Source: Metridium senile
Lineage: Eukaryota; Cnidaria; Anthozoa; Actiniaria; Metridiidae
NCBI GenBank assembly: GCA_949775045.1
Contig: OX459100.1
Location: 7,909,194-7,973,193, forward strand
Direction: 5' to 3'
DNA length: 64,000 nt
Shown here: in pieces, positions 34,601-61,375 of the stretch
Layout of the letters: each line of letters opens with the position of its first letter
Position numbering within the stretch: the stretch's first letter is position 1
The notes under the pieces: model-generated
The model's input: the letters and a program-made list of their open reading frames with translations, nothing else
What the model was told of the DNA's origin: nothing
The model's database searches: none
Program-made: the position numbers and the translations under genes

Positions 34601-37600
34601 TGCATTCCTACTCAAATCTTTCCAAAGCAATGAAATTAACGCAGTAGTTGGTTTTGAAGACGATCAAATCCCAAAGATTATGATAACAGCAGCAAGTCAA
34701 GAACATTTACACAACGCTATGGAGCTTTTAAACAGTTTAACAGCCGAGGAAATTATCCCTGTTGACCTAATTTCATCGGATAACTGGGGACAACTCATTG
34801 ATTTCCTGCAAGACACTTCACTCCTTAAAGTGACATCACCTAATCAACCACGTTTGATTCTTGCTGGTGTCAAAGAAAAAATCGAAAGAGCAAAGGTTCA
34901 AATCAATGCATTTCTGGAAACGTTTACAAACCAGAAAATAACTCAGGGAGTAGCAGTTTCTTCAGCAGCAACGGAAGGGACAATTGAACCGGCAAAACAA
35001 AAATTTTCCAATCCATCCAAGAAAAATACACCCACTTCAGTAGAAGCTCCAGTTACAGAGGAGAAATCACGTACTGTGGAGATAATAGGTATCTCACCTA
35101 AAACAATTAAAGATGCCTTGCTGAACTTCTTCGAGAACAAACGTCGATCAGGAGGAGGAGAAATAGAAGATATTCAATATAAACAGGATGAAGGATTGGC
35201 CGAAATCACCTTTTGCTCCTCTGAAGGTTGGTAACATTATTTTGTTTGTTTGTTTGCTAAAGGCCCGGGTAAATGGCTTCACCATTATTTGGTGCGGTTT
35301 CGAAAATGTTGAAATAGAGTGGCTAACGGATTCAACATTGCCATTCAATAAAATCGAACGGATGAAATTAATGGTAAATTAAGGTGTTTCTCAGTAGTTT
35401 TGTATTGACCACACTTCCCATTTTTCATTTAGCGAATTGATAAACTTTCCCTGATCTGATCAAGATGTATTTTGCACCAGATAAAAAGCAAAGAAAAACT
35501 AAAAAACTACTGAGAAACACCTTAATGTTTGTTTTTTGCTTACACCCTAACACCTAAACAAAAATGTAATGTTTTGTACTACAGACACTCTAGATAGTCA
35601 TTTTACATTTAATTCAGCTTAATTGCTTAATTCAGCTTTTAGGGAAAGTTTCCTTACATGATTCCTATTGGTGGTTCCAATGCTTTTGGTATTTTTGGAT
35701 ACGTAACTGTATTTCAAGTATTGATAGATCAGTTGAACAATTAACCAAACCTTTTATATTGTGCTTAATATTATAATTATTATTTTTTTTTTTTTTTTTT
35801 TTTAAATTTTAAATTTTATTTTAATTAACGACACACACAAAATTTACACTTAAAGAGTGTCGCAATAAATGTGACACACTAGAAGACACACAAAAAATAT
35901 TTACAAGTAAAGAGAGCCACAATAATTGTGACTCACGAGAAGATAAAAGTTTTTACAATAATTGAAGTTTCAATGAAATAAGTTTATAATTAACTATATA
36001 TATATACACACAAACAAACACAATCACTCAACAACTATATATTACTATACTAATGGCATTTAATTAACATACATATAACACAACTACAACACAATTCTAC
36101 GTCTGCTACATAGGACTTGTTCTATCTAAGGCAATAGTTTTTTCAATTTATTGTACTTTTTTAGATGTATATCTATTTTTCCATGACTTTTTGCAATTTC
36201 GTATTCGATATTTTCGTATTCTTGCAATTTTGATTTGAAATTTGCTATATTGGGAACCATTCCTCTGGTTCTACAGTTAACTATTGTGAATTTATATAAC
36301 AAAAATAGAAATTCTTCCATTTTATCGTTAACTCCTCCTAAGATAATATTACTTATATTTAATTTTGGTAGGTTTATATTCCCCGTATGTAACCAGTTTC
36401 TTATTTCAATAAAATAATTCTTTGTTAAATAACAATCAATAAAAAGATGTTCCATTGTTTCAATGGAAGATTTACAAAAAGTACAACTCGGTGAATCAAT
36501 TAGTTTAAATCTAAAAAGGTCTTTATTCAGAAAGAGGGAATTATTTAAAATTTTATATTGCAAAGCTCGTAACTTAGTGTCATTAGTAACATGATACATT
36601 TTTTTGTAAACTTCTGACCACTCAATGTCTGGGTTATTTAATTTATTAGCTATGTGTTTTTGTGCTGTCGGTTTGGTTAATTTATTTTCGATCAATTTCC
36701 AATAAACCATTCTAGTTTTCACTTTAGAAAGAGGAACATAAGTGTTAGAGATATTCAAACCTTTGCCAGCCTCGTTAGGACAGAGTACGGGTTTTTAGAA
36801 TTGTTTTCCAGTTATCTGGTAGAGCTGATATAATACCTCTCCATGTAAAATAGTCGGAATCACACCACTTTCCTTTGGCTTTAACCGAGTTCCAATTCGG
36901 CCCGTCTGTACAATCCCAAATGTCCTTAATTATTATTATCTCCTTCTTTACAAACTTTTTGATATCAAAATGATAAAGATCTAGGTTAATAAACCTATTT
37001 AGCCAAATCGGTTGACAAATAATTTCCTCTGGTTTTTCGACATAACATTTGCTTACTTTACTCCAGCTATAAAGAATTTCTTTATAAAACTCAGGTATAT
37101 CATTGATAAGAGCATGGTCTAAATTTTCTCCTATAACTCCAAACCCACCATATGGTTCAAAAACTTCAAGAGCATCTATCGTACGACTTCCATATAAGGG
37201 CAATGCTCATGTACGTGTAGAGGGTCACTAAAGTACATGAGAGATTTCACTGATGTACGTACAGGAGACTCGTACCCGGTTTACTAGAATATTTGTCCGC
37301 GTGACAAGGAATTTTCAAGATGGCGGACCGATGAAGCGAACAGAAAGTTATTGCACTCGATTCGCATATAAACAACCGAATATACATTGTAGTAATCAAG
37401 CCTCAGTTTATAGCCTGCCAGTGGGCTATGCGAACAGTATAAGTATAATCGCTCAATATCTACCATGGTAATCTAACCCAGTCTTCGACACTGTCCGAAA
37501 GCCCAAATAAAACGGCATATTTATTATTACTTATTCCATATCTTGAAATACTCTCATGCCACGCACTGTTTTCAGTCAGCAGCAGAAAATCATTCTCAAA

Positions 37601-40600
37601 AGAGCATGGTCTTCTGGCATTCGCTCAACGGATGAATACAAACAAAGAGTTTCTGCTTTAGCGAAAGAAGCGTCCCTTTATTAATACTGTAGTACAAGTA
37701 AAGGTAGGCTACGTATGGCTGACATTAGCCTCGTTTAAACAAACATTAATAGCAACATAATGAAGTAAAAAATAACACTTTTTATTAGATCAGTTTATAG
37801 CCTGTGATTAATAGTCGAATGGGTCAGTTTATAACCTGTGATTAATAGTCGAATGGGTCAGTTTATAACCTGTGATTAATAGTCGAATGGATCAGTTTAT
37901 AGCCTGTGATTAATAGTCGAATGGGTCACTTTATAACCTGTGATTAATAGTCGAATGGGTCAGTTTATAACCTGTGATTAATAGTCGAATGGGTCAGTTT
38001 ATAACCTGTGATTAATAGTCGAATGGGTCAGTTTATAACCTGTGATTAATAGTCGAATAGATCAGTTTATAACCTGTGATTAATAGTCGAATGGGTCAGT
38101 TTATAACCTGTGATTAATGGTCGAATGGGTCAGTTTATAACCTGTGATTAATAGTCGAATGGGTCACTTTATAACCTGTGATTAATAGTCGAATGGGTCA
38201 GTTTATAACCTGTGATTAATAGTCGAATGGGTCAGTTTATAACCTGTGATTAATAGTCGAATGGGTCAGTTTATAACCTGTGATTAATAGTCGAATGGGT
38301 CAGTTTATAACCTGTGATTAATAGTCGAATGGGTCAGTTTATAACCTGTGATTAATAGTCGAATGGGTCAGTTTATAACCTGTGATTAATAGTCGAATAG
38401 ATCAGTTTAAAACCTGTGATTAATAGTCGAATAGATCAGTTTATCACCTGTGATTAATAGTCGAATGGGTCAGTTTATAACCTGTGATTAATAGTCGAAT
38501 GGGTCAGTTTATAACCTGTGATTAATTAATAGTCGAATGGGTCGTCAGTTTAAAACCTGTGATTAATAGTCGAATAGATCAGTTTATAACCTGTGATTAA
38601 TAGTCGAATGGGTCAGTTTATAACCTGTGATTAATAGTCGAATGGGTCGTCAGTTTATAACCTGTGATTAATAGTCGAATGGGTCAGTTTATAACCTGTG
38701 ATTAATAGTCGAATAGATCAGTTTAAAACCTGTGATTAATAGTCGAATAGATCAGTTTATCACCTGTGATTAATAGTCGAATGGGTCAGTTTATAACCTG
38801 TGATTAATAGTCGAATGGGTCAGTTTATAACCTGTGATCATTAATAGTCGAATGGGTCAGTTTATAACCTGTGATTAATAGTCGAATGGGTCAGTTTATA
38901 ACCTGTGATTAATAGTCGAATGGGTCAGTTTATAACCTGTGATTAATAGTCGAATGGGTCAGTTTATAACCTGTGATTAATAGTCGAATGGGTCAGTTTA
39001 TAACCTGTGATTAATAGTCGAATGGGTCAGTTTATCCCCTGTGATTAATAGTCGTATGGGTCAGTTTATAACCTGTGATTAATAGTCGAATGGGTCAGTT
39101 TATAACCTGTGATTAATAGTCGAATGGGTCGTCAGTTTATAACCTGTGATTAATAGTCGAATAGATCAGTTTAAAACCTGTGATTAATAGTCGAATAGAT
39201 CAGTTTAAAACCTGTGATTAATAGTCGAATAGATCAGTTTATAACCTGTGATTAATAGTCGAATGGGTCAGTTTATAACCTGTGATTAATAGTCGAATGG
39301 GTCAGTTTATAACCTGTGATTAATAGTCGAATGGGTCGTCAGTTTATAACCTGTGATTAATAGTCGAATGGGTCAGTTTATAACCTGTGATTAATAGTGG
39401 AATGGGTCGTCAGTTTATAACCTGTGATTAATAGTCGAATGGGTCAGTTTATAACCTGTGATTAATAGTCGAATGGGTCAGTTTATAACCTGTGATCATT
39501 AATAGTCGAATGGGTCAGTTTATAACCTGTGATTAATAGTCGAATGGGTCAGTTTATAACCTGTGATTAATAGCCGAATGGGTCAGTTTATAACCTGTGA
39601 TTAATAGTCGAATAGACCAGTTTATAACCTGTGATTTTCAGTTGCAAACTACTAGCAACGATGTCGTTAATTCTCGACAGATGAAGAGTATAAAGTCGGC
39701 ACATTTGCAGCTGTCAAGTTGCTGGACATCATTCCTACGTATTCGTCAGTATCAGAAAATTTGGGAGATTTGGTTTTCGAGAAGTTAAAAATCCCAAAAT
39801 ATCCTTTGAGGCGTGGGGACATAATGTGTGCAACACAGTATTGCCAACGTCCTCGCAATGAAAGAATGGTGTGTTGCGACCACTGCAATAAATGGTATCA
39901 TTTCTCTTGCGTGGGCATTGGTAAAGCAGCCACTTTAGACGCTCAATGGTTTTGTCAGTGTCGTCAAAAGAAAAAAATCACGTACGTATATACCAACAGA
40001 TAAATCATATACCATACATCATGGTAATATCATAAACATCTGGTTTACGTTTGTTATATTTGTTACAGGGCTACAGTTGGATAATTGGACGAAATATATA
40101 CTAGGTATTTTTACAAGTTTTTTAAGGTCGTTTTTGATTATGTGTAAAAAAAAAACTTTGCACATGAACTGAACCGAATTATTGTCTTCTTTACGGATAT
40201 CTCAAAGATATCGGTATGAATAAGATCGATCCTTCATGGAGGCACACCTGTTTTTTAAAAAAACAAGAATAACAGGATCTTAAAAAGAAACCTCGATAGT
40301 CTTCACTGCATGGCCTATTGAAAAAGAAGAAATGGTAGTTAGCATGTTAGGGTACAATGCTAACACAAAACTAGCGGAATATTTCCATTTCGTTTTTATA
40401 GATTGAAGATTTTATGGACACAGCTCGGGGTTTATTAGGACCTTACGACCTAAGTCCGAGAACCCAAGATTTATTCTTCGACAAATCCTCCGACGAAGCA
40501 GTTGTAAATTCAGAATATTCAACTCTTGTTCTCGTTCCCGAGGTATTTATGTCATTTCATTCGTTTTTAGTTCATTATTCTATCTCTAATTGCTTGACAA

Positions 40601-43600
40601 GACCTTAAATTCATCTTGTTTTCCGTAGGCACTGGTAAAAGTAATAATGAAATTGGAGAACACCGGCCAACGCCAGATTGCTGAGGATACAGTCAATCCA
40701 AGGCGTCATCCATACACTTCCTATTTCTAGTGTTGATTTTTGTAAACCAATAGATACTTACGATTTCATTTTGTGATACCAAGCTATGCCAATAATTACT
40801 ATGCAGCCAATTTTGTATAAAACGTCCCATGCATAAAACGACCACCCTCTCTGCATATACAAGAACATGGTGATGATCCATTATAATGATGCAGGGGCGA
40901 GTGGCAGTTTCGTATCCAGAATTTTGAAGGGTAGAAGGGACTCATAAAAACTTCATTTAAAGTTATCAAATCAAATGATCTCTTTAGAATATTTTGTCAT
41001 CCCTAAACTAGACGGATTTTAGACTATTGCCAAGCCGTTGACTTGAATTTGACATTTTTATCATTTTTAGACCGATGACGCCATAACAACTCTAGGGCGT
41101 GGTCAGTGCTCATGTCAGTCACAGTTTTGAATTTGTCTCATCGATATCTTTCACATGATACCATTTGTTGTCACTTTCATCGACATTTTTCAAAAATTAA
41201 TTTTTCAGTCAAGCTGTGTTTTCAAGCCTGAGCTACTAATAAGAAATCTATAAGACCTCAAACCCTAGTTGGCCAAGGTTGGGGTTAACTCTTGAATTTA
41301 TACTATTCTACGCAACACTGGTATATTCTGAAAGCTCTTGCTGTGACATAAACAAATATGGTCTTTGTTTGTGGATTGACCACGCCTATCACGTGTTATA
41401 ACGTCAAACCTGTCAATCAACTCAATTTGCAATCTGCTCTGATTGGAATACGACTGGTATTTTTGGAAAGCGTAGAACTATACCTATTTGTTGGTGCATA
41501 TATAACTTAAATAGTCTAAAAGGCTGCAAAGTTACACAAGTTTTGCTGAACCAGGCTTTAGACCGATGACGCCATAACAACTCTAGGGCGTGGTCAGTGC
41601 TCATGTCAGTCACAGTTTTGAATTTGTCTCATCGATATCTTTCACATGATACCATTTGTTGTCACTTTCATCGACATTTTTCAAAAATTGGTTTTTCAGT
41701 CAAGCTATGTTTTCAAGCCTGAGCTACTAATAAGAAATCTATAAGACCTCAAACCCTAGTTGGCCAGGGTTGGGATTAACTCTTGAATTTATACTATTCT
41801 ACGCAACACTGGTATATTCTGAAAGCTCTTGCTGTGACATAAACAAATATGGTCTTTGTTTGTGGATTGACCACGCCTATCACGTGTTATAACGTCAAAC
41901 CTGTCAATCAACTCAATTTGCAATCTGCTCTGATTGGAAAAAGACTGGTATTTTTGGAAAGCGTAGATCTATACCTATTTGTTGGTGCATATATAACTTA
42001 AATACTCTAAAATGCTGCAAAGTTACACAAGTTTTGCTGAACCAGGCTTTAGACCGATGACGCCATAACAACTCTAGGGCGTGGTCAGTGCTCATGTCAG
42101 TCACAGTTTTGAATTTGTCTCATCGATATCTTTCACATGATACCATTTGTTGTCACTTTCATCGACATTTTTCAAAAATTGGTTTTTCAGTCAAGCTATG
42201 TTTTCAAGCCTGAGCTACTAATAAGAAATCTATAAGACCTCAAACCCTAGTTGGCCAGGGTTGGGATTAACTCTTGAATTTATACTATTCTACGCAACAC
42301 TGGTATATTCTGAAAGCTCTTGCTGTGACATAAACAAATATGGTCTTTGTTTGTGGATTGACCACGCCTATCACGTGTTATAACGTCAAACCTGTCAATC
42401 AACTCAATTTGCAATCTGCTCTGATTGGAAAAAGACTGGTATTTTTGGAAAGCGTAGATCTATACCTATTTGTTGGTGCATATATAACTTAAATAGTCTA
42501 AAAGGCTGCAAAGTTACACAAGTTTTGCTGAACCAGGCTTTAGACCGATGACGCCATAACAACTCTAGGGCGTGGTCAGTGCTCATGTCAGTCACAGTTT
42601 TGAATTTGTCTCATCGATATCTTTCACATGATACCATTTGTTGTCACTTTCATCGACATTTTTCAAAAATTGGTTTTTCAGTCAAGCTATGTTTTCAAGC
42701 CTGAGCTACTAATAAGAAATCTATAAGACCTCAAACCCTAGTTGGCCAGGGTTGGGATTAACTCTTGAATTTATACTATTCTACGCAACACTGGTATATT
42801 CTGAAAGCTCTTGCTGTGACATAAACAAATATGGTCTTTGTTTGTGGATTGACCACGCCTATCACGTGTTATAACGTCAAACCTGTCAATCAACTCAATT
42901 TGCAATCTGCTCTGATTGGAAAAAGACTGGTATTTTTGGAAAGCGTAGATCTATACCTATTTGTTGGTGCATATATAACTTAAATACTCTAAAAGGCTGC
43001 AAAGTTACACAAGTTTTGCTGAACCAGGCTTTAGACCGATGACGCCATAACAACTCTAGGGCGTGGTCAGTGCTCATGTCAGTCACAGTTTTGAATTTGT
43101 CTCATCGATATCTTTCACATGATACCATTTGTTGTCACTTTCATCGACATTTTTCAAAAATTGGTTTTTCAGTCAAGCTATGTTTTCAAGCCTGAGCTAC
43201 TAATAAGAAATCTATAAGACCTCAAACCCTAGTTGGCCAGGGTTGGGGTTAACTCTTGAATTTATACTATTCTACGCAACACTGGTATATTCTGAAAGCT
43301 CTTGCTGTGACATAAACAAATATGGTCTTTGTTTGTGGATTGACCACGCCTATCACGTGTTATAACGTCAAACCTGTCAATCAACTCAATTTGCAATCTG
43401 CTCTGATTGGAAAAAGACTGGTATTTTTGGAAAGCGTAGATCTATACCTATTTGTTGGTGCATATATAACTTAAATACTCTAAAAGGCTGCAAAGTTACA
43501 CAAGTTTTGCTGAACCAGGCTTTAGACCGATGACGCCATAACAACTCTAGGGCGTGGTCAGTGCTCATGTCAGTCACAGTTTTGAATTTGTCTCATCGAT

Positions 43601-46600
43601 ATCTTTCACATGATACCATTTGTTGTCACTTTCATCGACATTTTTCAAAAATTGGTTTTTCAGTCAAGCTATGTTTTCAAGCCTGAGCTACTAATAAGAA
43701 ATCTATAAGACCTCAAACCCTAGTTGGCCAGGGTTGGGGTTAACTCTTGAATTTATACTATTCTACGCAACACTGGTATATTCTGAAAGCTCTTGCTGTG
43801 ACATAAACAAATATGGTCTTTGTTTGTGGATTGACCACGCCTATCACGTGTTATGACGTCAAACCTGTCAATCAACTCAATTTGCAATCTGCTCTGATTG
43901 GCATAAGACTGGTATTTTTGGAAAGCTTAGAACTATACCTATTTGTTGGTGCATATATGACAATGAATACTTTAAGGAAGCAAATATGTAGTAATTGCAT
44001 TACAATAGCCTGCATATTTATTTTTGGAACATCAAAAACGTTTCAAATATGACTATTTTTTTAAACAACAGCTTAAGTTTATTCTGATTCAAGTGTAATC
44101 TTATAATTTATATTATTTTGCAATCATACTTATTATAGTTATTAACAATTAACTATGGTTACAATATATATAGCTATTAGATGTTTCATTTTTTTTTACA
44201 GCAAAGGAGAAGTTTGTTATTCTTTTCAGCTGTTTTTTTTTATCTTTTCATAATATTCAACTCGTGCTTTGTTACCATTTATCATTATTTTATCAGTTGT
44301 GTCTCTATTATATATGGTACTTGTACAACAGCAACAGGAAGTAATTAATTGTCTGTGCTTAAAGTTTGGAACATGATCCGGCATAATTATTACTATTAAA
44401 CTAAGTCATTAAGTTTAGGCAATATTATATTATAGTTGGCAAACCTCTTCACAATCTCACAATATTGCAAATATTAAAGTTTACATTTGACAAATAAATG
44501 CTCTATTGTTTCAATTTCTTTGTTGCACAATGAACACATTGGTGAGCTTTTAATTTTATACTTCATACAAACTTTCAAATATGACTATATTTAACAAAAA
44601 TAAAATAAAATAAAATAAAAGTATACTATGAGAGAAATACTAAAAATATACATAATCTTTTTGAAATTCATTTAAAGAACATATATTCTTTATGGCATCT
44701 CAGGACAAATAAAAATAACTTGTGTTCTAACAGAACATTCATCTGTAAAGGTCCCGATTTGCATTATAGCATCGTATATACTACCATTACCAGAATGCTT
44801 GATTTCTTGCTTTTGTTAAATAATATATTACTGTCAAATGTTCAAACAGTGTTAAGCAGACGTTCTTGTGGGCAAGAATCACAACTATTGAACCAGAAGG
44901 GATAATGATGATATGAGCGCCACCAAAGGAAAGGAATCCTTCGCACAAAGAGGTAAATTGGGCTATATCTGTCACACCATGATATTCGCGCACAGATACT
45001 GTGCTCTCTAGAGCAAGAACCTTTATGGCTTCATCGACATCTAACAGATTACCTGATGTTACCAGAGCATCATAGAGACTATTGCCTTCAATCATGAGCG
45101 GTATAAACGAAATCATAATATTAGCTGTATAATTGGGTACGTTGTAAAATGCTCCCTGCAGAAACTTAACTGTGGTTACCAAACAGAAATATAATAGTAC
45201 AGGCATTGCTGCCTCAACGTCCCAGTAAATAAGACTGACAGAACTGCATGCTCAGGAAGTTTTAGCTCTGTAACATTCTGATACACAATGGCCATGCATT
45301 TGTACAGTTACTGGTATATGAGGATGTGTACTACTGCTCGCTGCTGCTGCTGTATCAGGGTCTTGTGTAGTTACTGTTAGGGTAGGTGTCACAGAAGGGG
45401 TAGAGTTAATCACAGGTTATAAACTGACCTATTCGACTATTAATCACAGGCTATAAACTGACCCATTCGACTATTAATCACAGGCTATAAACTGAACCAT
45501 TCGACTATTAATCACAGGTTATAAACTGATCTATTCGACTATTAATCACAGGTTATAAACTGACCCATTCGACTATTAATCACAGGCTATAAACTGACCC
45601 ATTCGACTATTAATCACAGGCTATAAACTGACCCATTCGACTATTAATCACAGGTTATAAACTGATCTATTCGACTATTAATCACAGGTTATAAACTGAC
45701 CCATTCGACTATTAATCACAGGTTATAAACTGATCCATTCGACTATTAATCACAGGTTATAAACTGACCCATTCGACTATTAATCACAGGTTATAAACTG
45801 ACCCATTCGACTATTAATCACAGGCTATAAACTGACCCATTCGACTATTAATCACAGGTTATAAACTGATCTATTCGACTATTAATCACAGGTTATAAAC
45901 TGACCCATTCGACTATTAATCACAGGTTATAAACTGACCCATTCGACTATTAATCACAGGTTATAAACTGGTCTATTCGACTATTAATCACAGGTTATAA
46001 ACTGACCCATTCGACTATTAATCACAGGTTATAAACTGACCCATTCGACTATTAATCACAGGCTATAAACTGACCCATTCGACTATTAATCACAGGTTAT
46101 AAACTGATCTATTCGACTATTAATCACAGGCTATAAACTGACCCATTCGACTATTAATCACAGGCTATAAACTGACCCATTCGACTATTAATCACAGGTT
46201 ATAAACTGACCCATTCGACTATTAATCACAGGTTATAAACTGACCCATTCGACTATTAATCACAGGTTATAAACTGATCCATTCGACTATTAATCACAGG
46301 TTATAAACTGACCCATTCGACTATTAATCACAGGTTATAAACTGACCCATTCGACTATTAATCACAGGCTATAAACTGACCCATTCGACTATTAATCACA
46401 GGTTATAAACTGATCTATTCGACTATTAATCACAGGTTATAAACTGACCCATTCGACTATTAATCACAGGTTATAAACTGACCCATTCGACTATTAATCA
46501 CAGGTTATAAACTGACCCATTCGACTATTAATCACAGGCTATAAACTGACCCATTCGACTATTAATCACAGGTTATAAACTGATCTATTCGACTATTAAT

Positions 46601-49600
46601 CACAGGCTATAAACTGACCCATTCGACTATTAATCACAGGCTATAAACTGACCCATTCGACTATTAATCACAGGCTATAAACTGACCCATTCGACTATTA
46701 ATCACAGGTTATAAACTGATCTATTCGACTATTAATCACAGGTTATAAACTGACCCATTCGACTATTAATCACAGGCTATAAACTGACCCATTCGACTAT
46801 TAATCACAGGTTATAAACTGATCTATTCGACTATTAATCACAGGTTATAAACTGACCCATTCGACTATTAATCACAGGTTATAAACTGACCCATTCGACT
46901 ATTAATCACAGGTTATAAACTGACCCATTCGACTATTAATCACAGGCTATAAACTGACCCATTCGACTATTAATCACAGGTTATAAACTGATCTATTCGA
47001 CTATTAATCACAGGCTATAAACTGACCCATTCGACTATTAATCACAGGCTATAAACTGACCCATTCGACTATTAATCACAGGTTATAAACTGACCCATTC
47101 GACTATTAATCACAGGTTATAAACTGACCCATTCGACTATTAATCACAGGTTATAAACTGATCCATTCGACTATTAATCACAGGTTATAAACTGACCCAT
47201 TCGACTATTAATCACAGGCTATAAACTGACCCATTCGACTATTAATCACAGGTTATAAACTGATCTATTCGACTATTAATCACAGGTTATAAACTGACCC
47301 ATTCGACTATTAATCACAGGCTATAAACTGACCCATTCGACTATTAATCACAGGTTATAAACTGATCTATTCGACTATTAATCACAGGTTATAAACTGAC
47401 CCATTCGACTATTAATCACAGGCTATAAACTGACCCATTCGACTATTAATCACAGGTTATAAACTGATCTATTCGACTATTAATCACAGGTTATAAACTG
47501 ACCCATTCGACTATTAATCACAGGCTATAAACTGACCCATTCGACTATTAATCACAGGTTATAAACTGATCCATTCGACTATTAATCACAGGTTATAAAC
47601 TGACCCATTCGACTATTAATCACAGGTTATAAACTGACCCATTCGACTATTAATCACAGGCTATAAACTGACCCATTCGACTATTAATCACAGGTTATAA
47701 ACTGATCTATTCGACTATTAATCACAGGTTTTAAACTGATCTATTCGACTATTAATCACAGGTTATAAACTGATCTATTCGACTATTAATCACAGGTTTT
47801 AAACTGATCTATTCGACTATTAATCACAGGTTATAAACTGACGACCCATTCGACTATTAATCACAGGTTATAAACTGACCCATTCGACTATTAATCACAG
47901 GTTATAAACTGACCCATTCGACTATTAATCACAGGCTATAAACTGACCCATTCGACTATTAATCACAGGTTATAAACTGATCTATTCGACTATTAATCAC
48001 AGGTTATAAACTGACCCATTCGACTATTAATCACAGGTTATAAACTGACCCATTCGACTATTAATCACAGGTTATAAACTGGTCTATTCGACTATTAATC
48101 ACAGGTTATAAACTGACCCATTCGACTATTAATCACAGGTTATAAACTGACCCATTCGACTATTAATCACAGGCTATAAACTGACCCATTCGACTATTAA
48201 TCACAGGTTATAAACTGATCTATTCGACTATTAATCACAGGCTATAAACTGACCCATTCGACTATTAATCACAGGCTATAAACTGACCCATTCGACTATT
48301 AATCACAGGCTATAAACTGACCCATTCGACTATTAATCACAGGTTATAAACTGATCTATTCGACTATTAATCACAGGTTATAAACTGACCCATTCGACTA
48401 TTAATCACAGGCTATAAACTGACCCATTCGACTATTAATCACAGGTTATAAACTGATCTATTCGACTATTAATCACAGGTTATAAACTGACCCATTCGAC
48501 TATTAATCACAGGCTATAAACTGACCCATTCGACTATTAATCACAGGTTATAAACTGATCTATTCGACTATTAATCACAGGTTATAAACTGACCCATTCG
48601 ACTATTAATCACAGGCTATAAACTGACCCATTCGACTATTAATCACAGGTTATAAACTGATCCATTCGACTATTAATCACAGGTTATAAACTGACCCATT
48701 CGACTATTAATCACAGGTTATAAACTGACCCATTCGACTATTAATCACAGGCTATAAACTGACCCATTCGACTATTAATCACAGGTTATAAACTGATCTA
48801 TTCGACTATTAATCACAGGTTATAAACTGACCCATTCGACTATTAATCACAGGTTATAAACTGACCCATTCGACTATTAATCACAGGTTATAAACTGGTC
48901 TATTCGACTATTAATCACAGGTTATAAACTGACCCATTCGACTATTAATCACAGGTTATAAACTGACCCATTCGACTATTAATAACAGGCTATAAACTGA
49001 CCCATTCGACTATTAATCACAGGTTATAAACTGATCTATTCGACTATTAATCACAGGCTATAAACTGACCCATTCGACTATTAATCACAGGCTATAAACT
49101 GACCCATTCGACTATTAATCACAGGTTATAAACTGACCCATTCGGCTATTAATCACAGGTTATAAACTGACCCATTCGACTATTAATCACAGGTTATAAA
49201 CTGATCTATTCGACTATTAATCACAGGTTATAAACTGACCCATTCGACTATTAATCACAGGTTATAAACTGACCCATTCGACTATTAATCACAGGTTATA
49301 AACTGACCCATTCGACTATTAATCACAGGCTATAAACTGATCTAATAAAAAGTGTTATTTTTTACTTCATTATGTTGCTATTAATGTTTGTTTAAACGAG
49401 GCTAATGTCAGCCATACGTAGCCTACCTTTACTTGTACTACAGTATTAATAAAGGGACGCTTCTTTCGCTAAAGCATCCGTTGAGCGAATGCCAGAAGAC
49501 CATGCTCTTTCGAGAATGATTTTCTGCTGCTGACTGAAAACAGTGCGTGGCATGAGAGTATTTCAAGATATGGAATAAGTAATAATAAATATGCCGTTTT

Positions 49601-52600
49601 ATTTGGGCTTTCGGACAGTGTCGAAGACTGGGTTAGATTACCATGGTAGATATTGAGCGATTATACTTATACTGTTCGCATAGCCCACTGGCAGGCTATA
49701 AACTGAGGCTTGATTACTACAATGTATATTCGGTTGTTTATATGCGAATCGAGTGCAATAACTTTCTGTTCGCTTCATCGGTCCGCCATCTTGAAAATTC
49801 CTTGTCACGCGGACAAATATTCTAGTAAACCGGGTACGAGTCTCCTGTACGTACATCAGTGAAATCTCTCATGTACTTTAGTGACCCTCTACACGTACAT
49901 GAGCATTGCCCTTATATGGAAGTCGTACGATAGATCCTTCTCAAACTTTCTGCGCAAAGCATTTCCAAAAAACCGTATTTTTGCAATCCAGAAGTTTTAA
50001 CGCCCATTTAACTCGACTTGTTTCTATCATTGTTTCGAGGTCAGGGAGCCTTATTCCGCCTTCTCGTATATCTCCTATTAAAGTTCGGTATTTAATTTTG
50101 GGTTTCCTTCCATACCATATGAAATCGATAATTTCTTTTTGTACTTTTGCAATAAATGCACGATGAATAGGGAGTTTTGAAGATATGTATAACAATTGTG
50201 ATATTGCTAAGGATCGGATAATATGTACTTTTCCATAAATTGTTAAATTTCTTGTTTTCCATATTGATAGTATAGACTTAAACTTTTCAAACTGTCTAGA
50301 GAAGTTGTTATTTTGCATGAGTATTTTATTATGAGAAAAAAAATTCCTAAAATTTTCACACCATCAGTATGGAAATCTATTTTTTTAATTGATCTTACTT
50401 CATGCTGAGTTAGAACTTTATCTTTTAATCCAATCCAACCAATTTCAGATTTTGTCGTATTAAGCTGAAGCGAAGAAAAGGTCTTAAAATTATCGAGACA
50501 TTTTAAAATTTCTTTAAGGGAATTCGTATCCCTTAAACAAAAAGTTGCATCATCTGCAAATAGAACTAGTTTAGTCTGTTCCATTTCCTTATTAATTTGT
50601 ATTCCTTTTATCTCCTCGTTGTCACGGATTAGTTGAGCCATTATTTCAATGGTCAATATAAACAGGTACGGAGAAATTGGATCTCCCTGCTTTGTACCCC
50701 TTTTTATATCAAAAAAATCGGAAACTGACCCATTATTCAAGATACAGCTTCTGGTGTTTAAAAGTAGAATTCTAATCCAGTTAATGAAATCATTACCAAA
50801 ACCGAAATGTTGTAAAACTGCCAAAATAAAGTTATGCTCAATCGAGTCAAAAGCCTTTTGGAAGTCAGCTACAAATAGAATGTATGATCGATTAACTGCA
50901 TTTTCAGAATAATCAAACAAATCTGATATAAACCTTATGGGATCATCTATATGTCTTCCTTTTACAAACGCTGATTGATTAGGATGAATTAAGGAGGGTA
51001 AAAAATTAACTATTCTATTACAAAGGGCTTTACTACAAATCTTTACATCTACGTTTATCAAACTTATTGGGCGCCAGTTTTCAATGAACCTTACGTCTTT
51101 TTCAGGTTTTTCTAATAACATAACACAAACTTGATTTTGAGTAGTTGACAAAGATCCTATTTCATAACTATAATTCAAACAATCAACAAGCATTTGACCT
51201 AAATTATTCCAGAAGGCTAGGTAGAATTCCTTACTTAATCCGTCCATTCCAGGAGTTTTGTTATTACCCATTTCTTTTAGACTGTCATAACATTCTTTAT
51301 TTGTTAGTGGCCCCCCACAATGGCTTTTTTCTTCCTCTTCCAACTTTGGTGTATCAATATCTTTCAAAAACTGTAAAACCTCTTCAACAGACGTATTATT
51401 TTTTGAAGAATAAGTATTACTATAGAAGTTTTCAAGTTTCTTTAATACGGCAGATGGTTCTATAATTTCTTCTTGATCTTCTAAGATCTTTCTCACGTGT
51501 GTTTTTGTTTTCCGTCTTTTCTCTAATGTCAAAAAATATTTATTGCTTTTTTCACCGTATTCAAACCATGTTACCTTAGCTCTCATTATTAAACCCTTTG
51601 CTATATGATCACTAAGCAAGTTCAACTCTTGCTTTAATTTTTCATAATTTTTTAGTAACATGTCACTGGAATGCCAATCCTTAATTTGTTCTATTTCTTT
51701 TATTTCATTTTCAAGTTCCTTATATCTGTTCCTATTTTTTCTAGCCTTTGCTTTTGCGAAGGATATCGATTCTTTTCTAATTTCATATTTCATAAGTTCC
51801 CATTTTGAATGAGAGTTATTAATACTATTTTCTTTGAAATCATTTTTCTTATCCTCTATTAATCTTTTAATCATTTGAATGTAATTTTTGTCTTGGAGTA
51901 AGGAATTATTCATTTTCCAAAAAGATGGACCTTGAGCGTAATTCTGTAAAGACTTCAAACTTAATAGTAATGCGGAGTGATCTGTGGCTGGAGCTGGTAT
52001 TATATCTATGTCATGAACTGAAGGTTGAATTGAATCTGATATATAAAAATAGTCTAAACGACGAAATAATCTTTGACTATTATTTGATAGTTTTCCTTGA
52101 GCATATCCGCTCCACGTGAACCGTTTTGATTCGGGGTTTCTTATCCGCCAAATATCGCATAAGTCCAATTCTTGTTGTAAAACTTGTAATTGTTCAATTG
52201 ATCCAATTTTTAGTTTTGGGTTTCCACCAGCCGCTTCCATGTCTATATTTTGTATAAAATTAAAGTCTCCCCCCCAAATAATGGACGTATCTATTGGCAT
52301 ATTGATATCCTCGATTTTTTTAAGGACCGTTTTAAGAAATTTGATTTGGTTGGTTTCGTCATTTGGAAAGTATGAATTTATCAACAAGCAGTTTTTCCCT
52401 TGAATCTCGCATAACAATATTATTAATCTCCCCTCCTCGTCTGTTGATTTAGATATTACTTTATGATCCAGTTTTTCTCCTAACAGTATGGCTACTCCTC
52501 GGCTATTTGTGGATCCGTGTGAATAAATAATATTTCCCCTAAAGCGCTGTTTCCATTTTTCTTCTATATCCTGTGTACTATGTGTTTCTTGTAATAGTGA

Positions 52601-55600
52601 GATTCCTACTTTTCCTCCGTGTTTTACAAGCCAATTCAACATTTTTTTATTTTTCTTAAAATCTCGCATACCTCGGACATTGAGCGAAATTAAATTAACA
52701 TTCAAATCCATTCTACATCCCATAAAGCTAATTGCCTATTGATACCACAAGCCCTTACAACAACAAAACATTCAACAGTAAAACATAAAACAGTAACAAC
52801 AATAGAACGCACATAAATTAGAGTATTGATAATAACGCCCATATTCTCTGGACATAAAGAAAGTCGAAAACAATACCCACTATATGCACACACAAAGTGA
52901 ACAAAACGCTTAACGAATGTATAGTTAATGAACAATACATGTGATGATGCCATTGGGACTAAACAACTAAATTCCAGGTTTGATCCTGCATATTGATTTT
53001 TCAAAAATATTATAATATTTGCATGAGAAGATATAACATTTTGTCGAAGAGAAAAAAGAACAGTAAAATAAACAGTAAAAAGATAGTTCAGCTCTAGATT
53101 AAATAACACCGTTCATTAAATTTATCATGCACTTATCTGTCAATATTATTCATGTGACAAAGAGTCTTTCCAAATCAGCTTGTCTTGAGATCATGTAGGA
53201 TTTGCCTCCTTTTTCCATCTTAACAAATATTTTTCCATCTTTCGTTGCCACCTTTGACCACTTGTATTGTTTAGCTCTTTTCCTTACTTCGGCAAATAGT
53301 TTCTTTCTTTCTTGGGTCAAATGCTCATTAATGTAGATTTGTTTTGCTCCGTTGATTTTTCCTCTACTTCCCTCGTAGTTTCTCAATTTCCACCTTGCTT
53401 CGTAAAGACTCTTTTTGTCATCATAACTCTTGAATTTTACTAATATTGGTTTTGGACTTATCTTTGACCTTTGACGATGTACTATATCGATATCAATACA
53501 TTCTATTCCCACATCAATTTCTTTTGCTATCGCTTCAACGATATCTTCTAAATCTTCTCCTTCTTCTTCTGGTATTCCATGTATTTCTACGTTATACTTT
53601 CTTTGGTATTGGTTTAGCTCATCTAGCTGTTCTTCTTGCTGGCTTAACCGAGCATTCAGTGTTATCAAATTGGATTCTAAGTTATCTGAGGTTGTGCTTT
53701 GTTTCTTCGTTTCAGCGAGAACCTTGATATTTTCCTCTTGCAGCTCCTTGATTATTTGGGCTTGAAACTCAGAGGCTTTTTTTTACTTCTTCAAATTCTT
53801 TCTTTAACTCGGCATTTTCTACCATGATGTGTTTGGTATTATTTTCTACTTCCATTAGCTTATTGTATATCATAGCTAAAGTTGGGATGTTATGTTGGCT
53901 GTCGTCCATGTGCTCGCGTTCTTTCTCTGCCATTTTGGCGTTCTTAGGATTTGGAGAAGCTTCTTGCGACGACGTGGAAGAGTACTGCTCTCTTTCTCTT
54001 CTTTTGCTCATATGGGATATTTTCTTGTTCTAAGGAAGTATCTTCTTCTTTAAGTTTAAAACTTCAGGCCAAAACCTTGACGGAGCTATTTCACACACGT
54101 CCGTCCATGACCGAGTCCCCCATGCACTATAATTATTTTATTAAACATGACCCCCCTTCCCCCCCCATGCTTTCTCCCTCCCCCTTTCATAAATAATGAC
54201 TGTTCCCTTACTACCGATCGCAGTCTAATGTAACTACTCACGTGAACTGTTCAGGCAACCAAAATAATGAGGGAAGAACGCAAAACATGCAGCCGCTTTG
54301 TTGGGCATAAGCGAATAAGCATTCAGTTTTTTTGAAACGACTGAACAACGGTGCATTCCACATGATCATTTTGCCGTATCAGAAATACCGTATGCAATCT
54401 TGAAAACAATGCCATTACCATATATGGTATTGTAGGTGAGAAGTAACAAAAGACTTTGATTAGCGCGCAAGATTATTTTCTTTTTTAAACAGGTTGAGAT
54501 TCCAACAGAACAATAGGCATATATTTAATACGTCGCCTGAACAGGCCACGTGAGTAGTTTGAAAAACAAAGACGAATCGAATTTTTAGACTGTGAGTAGT
54601 ATTCTTTTATTAAAAGATTTTTTAAAACATTTTTAAAGAACACGTTAGCATATTTGTTTTTGTAGATGCTGAAAATATATCTCAAAAAGAGGGCCTAGAA
54701 CTTGATGGTGCAAAGCTTGGTATAGCACTCAAAGAATTACCTAAAGTACTACCAAAGGACCCGTGCAAACTGCATGTAATAGGATTATCAGAGAAAATAA
54801 CTAAAGATGGTTTCCTATCCTTCATAGAGGTGGTCAGTGGCGAAGAAGTTCAGAACATGCTGTTTGGAAGTAATTCCAATGTGATGGTTACATTTGAAGA
54901 CCCACCCGGTAAGGCAATTTAAAAGGCCAAAGCGAAAATATACTCTTAACGTAGTTCGGGACTCATGCATTCCCTCGATATAAGTTTTTGAAACTTTTCC
55001 CACATAAGGATGACATAGGTAGAACTGAAAACTGAAACAAAAAGGATGTTAACGCGGCCTGCAATAAGCAACTAAATTTGTTGTAATCAAGTAATTATAA
55101 TGAATAGCAATTGTTTTACCCAAATCTTCCGATAGAGGTTTTTCCAGTAATTTTTTTTAAAACATCAATTAGAGCGCGTGACACAACAAATTAGAAATCT
55201 TGATTCTCTAACTTATCATTGATCATTTGTAGACTTGGAAAAAATCCAACAAAAGTGCAGAAAAAGACCCCTGGATGGAAACCACTTGCAGGTGGAACAA
55301 GTCAGCATCTGTGACTGTATTGAGGTATCGGGTCTTGGATCTAAAACAACACGTGATACTATTATGTACTACTTTGAAAACCCAAGAAAATCTGGCGGTG
55401 GAGATGTGAAAAAAGTAGAATATGTTGATGGGGAGACGAAAGCGCTTGTTTTCTTTGAGGAGCCCTCAGGTAGGTGCAGCTAAACGGTGCATTCTTGAAA
55501 AGTTGTACGATTATAAATCATTCATTTTGTTTTCAGATGTTGACAGAGTGGTATCTCATGAACACGTGATGTATGCCGGTGAACCCTTAAAAGTTGTTCC

Positions 55601-60504: not shown

Positions 60505-61375
60505 TATTGGAAACTATGAACTAAAGGTCAACTATTACCATGACAACATTTGACTACCATGACAACATTTGACTACTATGACAACATTTGACTACCATGA
60601 CAACATTTGACTACCATGACAACATTTGACTACCATGACAACATTTGACTACCATGACAACATTTGACTACCATGACAACTTATGACTACATTTAGTACT
60701 GGCTTGACGACTAATGAATATCATGACACTCCATGGCTGTCATGACAACCAACAAACTATTACCATGACAAACATACCATAACTACTTGTAACTGCTACC
60801 ATGACAATGTATGACTACCATGACAACCTACCACTACCATGACAACACCTATGACCACCATGACAACCTATGACTACCATGACAACACCTATGACCACCA
60901 TGACAACCTTTGACTACCATGACAACCTATGACTACCATGACAACCTATGACCACCATGACAACCTATGACTATCATGACAACCTACCACTACCATGACA
61001 ACCTATGACTACCATGACAACTTACCACTACCATGACAACCTACCACTACCATGACAACCTATGACTACCATGACAACCTACCACTACCATGACAACCTA
61101 CCGCTACCATGATAACCTATAACCACCATGACAACCTACCACTACCATGACAACCTACCGCTACCATGATAACCTATAACCACAGTGACAACCTACCACT
61201 ACCATGACAACCTACCACTACCATGACAACCTATAACCACCATGACAACCTACCACTACCATGACAACCTACCACTACCATGACAACCTATAACTACCAT
61301 GACAACCTACCACTACCATGACAACCTATGGCTACCATGGCAACCTATGGCTAACATGACAACCTACCACTAGGT
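60505..61375. repeat. ACCATGACAACCT minisatellite
   Basis: Around 50 units of about 16 bp with the core ACCATGACAAC and variable spacers (CTATGACT, CTACCACT, ATTTGACT). The left part uses the ATTTGACT spacer, the right part the CTACCACT and CTATAACC spacers, so the array grew in stages. Confidence 0.93.

Follow-up and report, generated by a model that had tools for sequence, protein, structure and literature searches.

In a window of 64,000 nucleotides from Metridium senile (the whole stretch of DNA that we analysed, to which all positions refer), a large unit made of inverted arms, inverted satellite arrays and a core raises the question of whether it represents an undescribed class of giant transposon, as was proposed in the initial annotation, or a form of something already known. 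Our best reading is that its family is a foldback of a known sort and not a new class; its arms are exceptionally long, and it is tentatively linked to the KDZ (Kyakuja-Dileera-Zisupton) superfamily.

The window element, its insertion site and its copies

Near-identical inverted arms (37174-37787 and 49343-49935) around inverted arrays of a 34-bp unit (53.6 and 115.6 copies) were recovered, and comparison of copies moves each true end outward by 7 bp, from 37174 to 37167 and from 49935 to 49942. The element (37167-49942) is 12,776 bp long and has a 5.8-kb core between its arrays. Its outer features are:

37161..37166, no strand: target-site duplication AAACTT, left copy (flank comparison)
37167..37787, + strand: A-end arm, terminus CAAGAGC followed by ATCTATCGTACGACTTCC...; 0-2 substitutions relative to the nine other arms of the five large copies
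37556..37684, + strand: short exon-like ORF (MPRTVFSQQQKIILKRAW...) in the A-end arm, no Pfam match
37790..39636, + strand: left satellite array, 34-bp unit, 53.6 copies by tandem-repeat call, 54 units by unit count
45406..49340, - strand: right satellite array, 34-bp unit inverted, 115.6 copies by tandem-repeat call, 115 units by unit count
49343..49942, - strand: B-end arm, terminus GAGAAGG followed by ATCTATCG..., read inward; 21 bp deleted compared with the other arms
49943..49948, no strand: target-site duplication AAACTT, right copy (flank comparison)
50243..52735, - strand: segment of the LINE that the element interrupts (RVT_1, E 2.7e-33; below cut-off, an endonuclease-like match, E 0.0011)

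The element sits inside a LINE, where its target duplication is 6 bp. When the element is removed and the flanks are joined, the LINE frame is open again on the minus strand (...WKCFAQKVFEPYGGFG...), which bears out the clean interruption that had been claimed; the LINE is apparently continued by frames 49941-50363 and, across the element, 36775-37166. As a control for chance, 39 of 20,000 position pairs drawn at random from the window gave a flank match of at least 6 bp.

A search of the genome found the arms at several loci and not at one: there are four further large copies (11-31 kb) and one of 560 bp. Target duplications of the two-ended copies are 8 bp in four of six, 7 bp in one and 6 bp in one, and 30 swapped flank pairs used as a control matched over only 0-2 bp. 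All six have one CAAGAGC (A) end and one GAGAAGG (B) end each, and in all five large copies, the arms of which are 0-4 substitutions apart, the A end adjoins the side of the core that carries the PHD exon. Scanning the genome for ends with up to 3 mismatches yielded 16 (8 A and 8 B), 12 of which form pairs; the reversed-pattern control yielded none. As five large copies and a miniature occupy separate sites and every one of them has a target duplication of its own, we count the family as mobile, in agreement with what the LINE insertion had first suggested. When segmental duplication was considered, the copies were found not to share flanks. That the locus is an assembly artefact, or a segmental duplication of satellite DNA, is extremely improbable: long tandem arrays in inverted orientation are easily misassembled, and exact array lengths are uncertain for this reason, but six copies with unrelated flanks, copy-specific target duplications and fixed end polarity, together with the restored LINE frame, argue against it. 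The window unit is a real, recently mobile, non-autonomous foldback transposon with satellite-swollen arms, and belongs to the foldback structural group, having inverted, tandem-repeat-filled arms around a middle part and target duplications of 6-8 bp in six of six copies.

An older, more diverged end in L018 lies beyond the reach of the 3-mismatch scan. The sizes of the copies in C4 and C3 suggested gene-rich giants, which were ruled out, since the C4 copy is 83% satellite and the C3 copy contains a later 18.3-kb insertion with a 5-bp duplication.

The core and the arms-only copy

The unit had been credited with a spliced gene of its own, encoding a PHD finger, and this gene was used as a mark of the proposed class. 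The features of the core are:

39681..39985, + strand: PHD-finger exon, AG before and GT after, borders drawn by eye
40402..40542, + strand: predicted exon that follows in the PHD gene; joined to the final exon, it gives a weak RTC4-like match (E 0.038, below cut-off)
40629..40730, + strand: final predicted exon of the PHD gene
41066..43958, + strand: 491-bp tandem repeat, 5.9 copies (tandem-repeat call), copy number varying between elements
44787..45251, - strand: 154-aa ORF, decayed relative of the unnamed proteins P0002-P0004

The PHD domain of this gene stood (PF00628, E 8e-8, 32.6 bits for a cut-off of 24). The spliced gene was confirmed only in part: introns with GT-AG borders can be placed by eye, but a complete protein was not found in the window core, and none of 45 candidates from a protein database was related, at E <= 0.01, to the 182-aa join of the three exons. 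No transposase was seen in the window element, the core of which holds the PHD-gene remnant, the decayed ORF and the 491-bp repeat. Polinton/Maverick elements, which carry polymerase B, integrase and capsid genes, were rejected as a candidate for the window copy: no frame of its core exceeds 154 aa, and a scan of the two longest of these frames matched only PHD.

The reading in which a new class of giant transposon encodes its own machinery in the core draws on the lack of a recognisable transposase in the family, on elements reaching 31 kb and on the PHD exon conserved in all five large copies. We consider it highly unlikely. The PHD gene is in all large copies because they stem from one very recent element, and recency accounts for the conservation of the core. 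Since this sharing reflects recent common descent, and since the 560-bp copy lacks it, the gene does not define a class. This small copy (C3:9272603-9273162) is made up entirely of arm sequence, has an A end as well as a B end and is flanked by an 8-bp duplication; therefore the core is not needed in cis. Also against this reading, the 154-aa ORF is without the conserved FDSHSHGKDGALSFS stretch of P0002-P0004, or its like, in all four copies that have the ORF, and 31-83% of the length of the elements is satellite.

The predicted structure for the family of the 154-aa ORF (mean pLDDT 38.7) was set aside, and an IMG/VR scan with P0003 gave five pattern-matching stretches, none of which encodes a relative. 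A motif had led us to suppose this ORF to be a herpes-tegument-like (C76) protease; scans of domain libraries gave this idea no backing. The 491-bp repeat was absent from the initial annotation.

Satellite growth and known foldback systems

Arrays of the five large copies hold 47-617 units, the longest in a single arm reaching up to about 21 kb, and the highest satellite share (83%) is that of the 31-kb copy. Duplicated blocks exceed shuffles in 7 of 11 arrays, the longest, in the left array of C4, spanning 52 units (shuffled maximum 9); internal blocks above shuffles are absent in the other four. Copies C3 and C1 have blocks of 26 and 33 units in common (8 and 9 in shuffles), C1 and C14 a block of 13 units (10 in shuffles), and 7 of 10 compared array pairs, including C6/C4, the copies nearest in orientation, have no common block above shuffles. 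Since arrays of such different lengths stand in complete, duplication-flanked elements with nearly identical arms, the transposon seeds satellite arrays at new sites, and their lengths diverge almost at once. Long arrays may have moved as such or grown after insertion, and the five near-identical copies represent a natural experiment on satellite growth.

Taken as a whole, we find it probable that this is a non-autonomous cut-and-paste foldback DNA transposon with satellite-growing arms, a decayed core and a transposase most likely of KDZ type. In this model, a transposase presumably supplied in trans would recognise the termini, probably their outer ~158 bp, and the unit, which would be excised, is inserted with a mostly 8-bp staggered target duplication. 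The 34-bp satellite between the conserved termini and the core was perhaps seeded from an arm motif; the arrays change length by block duplication, as the unit order in 7 of 11 arrays shows, and do so much faster than point mutations accrue, and unequal exchange or slippage may drive this process. The core would be decayed cargo, copied along with the element.

In its structure, in lacking a transposase and in having tandem repeats within its arms, the family agrees with known foldbacks (Tetris, Galileo, Tm1, FB), and the claim of an undescribed class is not supported. The arms of FB and TU elements consist of short tandem units, a likeness by description and not by sequence. Tetris/DAIBAM of Drosophila virilis is, in the cited passages of PMC4079207, also non-autonomous, with few complete copies and an autonomous partner not found; its repeat has a stretch in common with the outer end, its repeats grow into satellite DNA, and its duplications of 8-10 bp count as a further likeness. 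It differs in its 220-bp unit and in satellite arrays of at most 66 copies, whereas in the window family, which has a 34-bp unit, a single arm of a complete element between target duplications can contain as many as 617 copies. The same passages propose a Mutator affiliation for Tetris, consider that large arm arrays may disrupt transposition, and name FB (D. melanogaster) and TU (sea urchin) as foldbacks. Galileo, of the P superfamily, has long inverted ends with tandem repeats of varying number, lengthened by internal rearrangement and longest in non-autonomous copies; unlike the window family, its ends, as given in the cited part of PMC3573991, are about 0.3-1.2 kb, with at most 3 internal repeats and a known P-type transposase. 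Tm1, a Mutator/foldback element of root-knot nematodes, has composite inverted ends of variable length and MITE-like forms alongside gene-bearing forms, but 9-bp duplications and a Phantom/Mutator transposase (PMC3169594, cited part).

The transposase and the KDZ superfamily

None of the 16 ends found in the genome scan (up to 3 mismatches) lies in an evident complete autonomous element. Two loci, L034 and L035, have the outer ~158 bp in common with the window element and continue into a C2H2 zinc-finger exon; they are 95.8% identical over 525 aligned columns, from the B end past the 158-bp module into that exon. In L035, an exon after the C2H2 finger, on the same strand, matches CxC4 (PF18717, E 3.3e-5; no match with the reversed sequence), with 24.2 bits for a curated cut-off of 26.9 and over 49 of 130 profile positions. 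CxC4 is described in Pfam as a CxC-type cysteine cluster associated with KDZ transposases. Three later exons of L035 are each preceded by AG, and from their order and strand we infer that they are part of the element to which that B end belongs. A genome-wide CxC4 profile search gave no match at E <= 0.001, none of the 21 genome matches listed for the KDZ domain (PF18758) is near L034, L035 or the window element, and, of 12 protein-database candidates for an approximate 162-aa join of the L035 exons, none was related at E <= 0.01. A recent KDZ family with 11 matching places was rejected as a partner, as its terminus ATCACCCGG differs (one family, one end and two copies compared).

In the cited parts of two studies, target duplications are 8 bp for Zisupton and 7 bp for two Kyakuja families (PMC12730594), and Zisupton genes are multi-exonic, with a Pristionchus Zisupton that has inverted ends but is described without duplication (PMC9297572). 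The likeness to KDZ/Zisupton, as far as these parts describe it, lies in duplications of 7-8 bp and multi-exon genes (PMC12730594, PMC9297572) and, if the sub-cut-off match of L035 is genuine, in CxC-type cysteine clusters as described in Pfam for PF18717; the difference is that the KDZ domain was not seen in copies of the window family. Among the papers listed in our literature search, there was no foldback KDZ element. The duplications of the window family (8 bp in four of six copies, 7 bp in one, 6 bp in one) fit the 7-8 bp of KDZ, although the 6 bp of the window element itself speaks against it, and fit other superfamilies too: the P superfamily has a P-type transposase with THAP, Mutator a MULE transposase and 8-11 bp duplications, and hAT a hAT transposase and 8-bp duplications, so that our 6-8 bp partially fit the Mutator range and fit hAT. 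The element could be a foldback from a different superfamily, one that makes duplications of about 8 bp (Mutator, P/Galileo-like or hAT), and the CxC4-like exon of L035 would be coincidental or captured. Duplications of 7-9 bp are compatible with this, foldbacks are known in Mutator (Tm1, PMC3169594) and in P (Galileo, PMC3573991, both as cited), and what speaks for KDZ is a single domain match, partial and below cut-off, beside a null genome-wide CxC4 search. Yet no Mutator, P or hAT transposase was matched in 27 strings of chosen frames scanned with Pfam, and the common 158 bp of L034 and L035 leads into the C2H2-finger exon, with the CxC4-like exon after it on the same strand in L035; we regard this alternative as conceivable but rather unlikely.

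On the slight evidence of these two loci, a KDZ-type transposase probably moves the window family, which points, if weakly, to a known superfamily and again away from a new class. If this link is true, foldback structure reaches another transposase superfamily. Whether animal KDZ transposons gave rise to satellite-armed non-autonomous foldbacks, in which arrays of tens to hundreds of units ride in mobile ends to new sites, appears to us evenly balanced. Finally, one copy has nested in it another foldback of a different kind, with inverted 19-bp arrays, which suggests repeated origins of satellite arms in this genome.

The window foldback element and its copies

In the 389-Mb assembly, where the window occupies C6:7909194-7973193, the limits and layout proposed in the initial annotation (inverted arms, inverted arrays of a 34-bp unit, and a core) were correct to within 7 bp, and alignment of the copies placed the true element start 7 bp further out. 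Structurally, this is a foldback element. Its arrays hold 53.6 and 115.6 units by TRF, versus 54 and 115 by segmentation, and its core carries an additional 491-bp tandem repeat (5.9 copies). The termini are of two types, the A end (CAAGAGC followed by ATCTATCGTACGACTTCC) and the B end (GAGAAGG followed by ATCTATCG...). A genome search with the left arm matched at least 19 places, a tally that is a lower bound. These comprise five large two-ended elements, named here by contig, one miniature, and further relatives that have one end only, are incomplete or are older (two on C11, others on C8, C1 at 39.34 Mb, C7 and C2).

Two-ended copies: location; length; target duplication; array units, left/right
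Window copy (C6); large, 12,776 bp; AAACTT (6 bp); 54/115
C4:8983489-9014678; large, 31.2 kb, right core truncated; AAATAAAG (8 bp); 617/131
C3:23135125-23164049; large, 28.9 kb including an 18.3-kb later insertion (5-bp duplication); TCAAATCA (8 bp); 64/91
C1:48714149-48728154; large, 14.0 kb; CAGATTGT (8 bp); 128/96
C14:5786059-5797328; large, 11.3 kb, one arm with a 2.4-kb insertion; GACCTGT (7 bp); 54/47
C3:9272603-9273162; miniature, 560 bp; CTATTTTG (8 bp)
For comparison, the C11 relative has 24 array units, much more diverged.

Swapped flank pairs (30) shared 0-2 bp, and when pairs of window positions were drawn at random, 39 of 20,000 gave a flank match of at least 6 bp. The window duplication may originally have been the 8-bp AAAAACTT, from which two A's were lost. 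The interrupted LINE encodes RVT_1, and its frame is open across the joined flanks with one duplication (59 codons tested). Genome-wide, allowing up to three mismatches, we found 16 element ends, eight A and eight B, and none with the reversed-pattern control. All six two-ended copies have one A and one B end, and the PHD side of the core carries the A end in all five large copies. The left core has six matches, namely the five large copies (99-100%) and a 220-bp fragment (86%). This fragment (L041, C6:12728795-12729005) is related to the left-core edge, includes the start of the PHD exon and has no satellite before it; it is perhaps the source gene, or an older element.

Coding content and a candidate transposase

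The PHD finger exon of the left core is certain as a domain. GT-AG introns can be drawn from it to two further exons, and the arm contains a short ORF (MPRTVFSQQQ...) which we conjecture to be an earlier exon. A 154-aa ORF on the minus strand is present at four places and has four database relatives: P0001 (99%) is the same version, and the other three run on into FDSHSHGKDGALSFS or similar, a stretch that the element's version lacks. This ORF looks decayed. No transposase was seen among the frames read, in an ORF listing that covered the window, the extracted loci L020-L022 and L024-L026 and smaller loci, and left out the C1 and C14 copies. As the miniature copy demonstrates, the core is dispensable in cis.

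Two relatives open on a B end: L034 (C8) and L035 (C1:39.34 Mb). Both have their outer ~158 bp in common with the window arms, and the two loci align with each other past this point into a C2H2-finger exon (525 columns in all, 95.8%). Downstream on the same strand, L035 has more exon-like frames, one of which matched PF18717 CxC4, described in Pfam as a "cysteine cluster associated with KDZ transposases" (E 3.3e-5; 24.2 bits against a cut-off of 26.9; 49 of 130 positions), and the reversed frame had no Pfam match. Since 27 strings were scanned with Pfam in all, some overlapping, a chance match at this E value is unlikely. A transposase of the KDZ (Kyakuja-Dileera-Zisupton) type is the likely candidate behind the element. 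Against it, there was no KDZ-domain match near L034 or L035 among the 21 listed for the genome, a genome-wide CxC4 search gave nothing at E <= 0.001, and the one KDZ family compared has a terminus unlike that of the foldback element. This KDZ family, at C1:4440659 and 10 other places (11 places with the same KDZ-domain segment by score), looks recently active; among nine 3.1-kb loci compared, L047 is 99.90-99.94% identical to the other eight.

Array turnover and a probable exchange between arms

Arms of the large copies, ten in all, are 0-4 substitutions apart over ~610 bp, and the C11 arm is 28-32 substitutions from them. We compared the arrays as strings of unit variants, setting block lengths against the maximum of 10 or 20 shuffles. 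The final units adjoining the left core are the same in four of the five copies; the C6 left string has singletons at its end, yet the rare unit of the other copies is found there too. Those adjoining the right core are the same in three of five (C3, C1, C14), and the middle parts vary in length and order. Internal duplicated blocks exceeded the shuffled maximum in 7 of 11 arrays and did not in C6 left (5 vs 7), C3 left (6 vs 8), C14 left (6 vs 7) and C11 (1 vs 1).

Longest internal block versus shuffled maximum (units)
C4 left, 52 vs 9
C4 right, 27 vs 6
C1 left, 26 vs 10
C3 right, 19 vs 10
C6 right, 15 vs 7
C1 right, 9 vs 8
C14 right, 6 vs 5

Blocks common to two copies rose above shuffles in three of ten array pairs (C3/C1, 26 and 33; C1/C14, 13 vs 10), and in none of the other seven, C6/C4 included. 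Turnover is thus far more rapid in the arrays than in the single-copy parts, to the extent that C6 and C4 have no common order left. As to a possible origin of the satellite in the arm, a 15-bp word is common to the arm and one unit variant (76 of 1421 units), where 500 shuffled arms reached at most 12; the commonest unit has only a 10-bp word in common with the arm, a length also reached by shuffled arms. For Tetris, comparable sharing between repeat and end, of 37 bp, is reported (PMC4079207).

At one arm site, four of five A arms have A and all five B arms have G, the exception being the C14 A arm. This same arm carries a 5-bp insertion otherwise found in the B arms of C3, C1 and C14 (the last from raw sequence). 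The missing A-arm base and the B-arm insertion therefore point to an exchange of sequence between the two C14 arms. In their unit order, the left and right C14 arrays give this no further support (longest common block 6 units, shuffled maximum 7).

Known foldback elements and further insertions

Tetris is closest to this family in form and behaviour (PMC4079207), followed by Galileo and Tm1 (PMC3573991, PMC3169594). What sets our family apart is its 34-bp unit, hundreds of copies, one ~21-kb arm, slightly asymmetric termini and a possible KDZ affiliation. Among the open-licence papers listed for Zisupton, KDZ and foldback elements, titles and abstract openings mention no foldback KDZ element and no arrays this long, which leaves their absence unproven.

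The C14 arm insertion (L030:2558-5000, C14:5786558-5789000) is itself a foldback, with short inverted ends (TGGCGTGCCGTTTG...) and a 19-bp unit repeated in two arrays of opposite orientation (43.8 and 33 copies), the inverted halves being ~80-83% alike; its apparent 3-bp duplication, CGT, suggests the same design in a different superfamily. The 18.3-kb insertion in the C3 core (L024:6108 to L026:4397, C3:23139208-23157497) is flanked by the duplication ATAAT and holds several ORFs, three of which were scanned with no significant Pfam match. Elsewhere in the window, 228-35234 and 55419-57319 contain several long ORFs on both strands with recurring similar sequences, putative paralogous genes of PARP14/macro-domain type, and 60536-61366 is a further 19-bp tandem array of 43.8 copies (TACCATGACAACCTATGAC).
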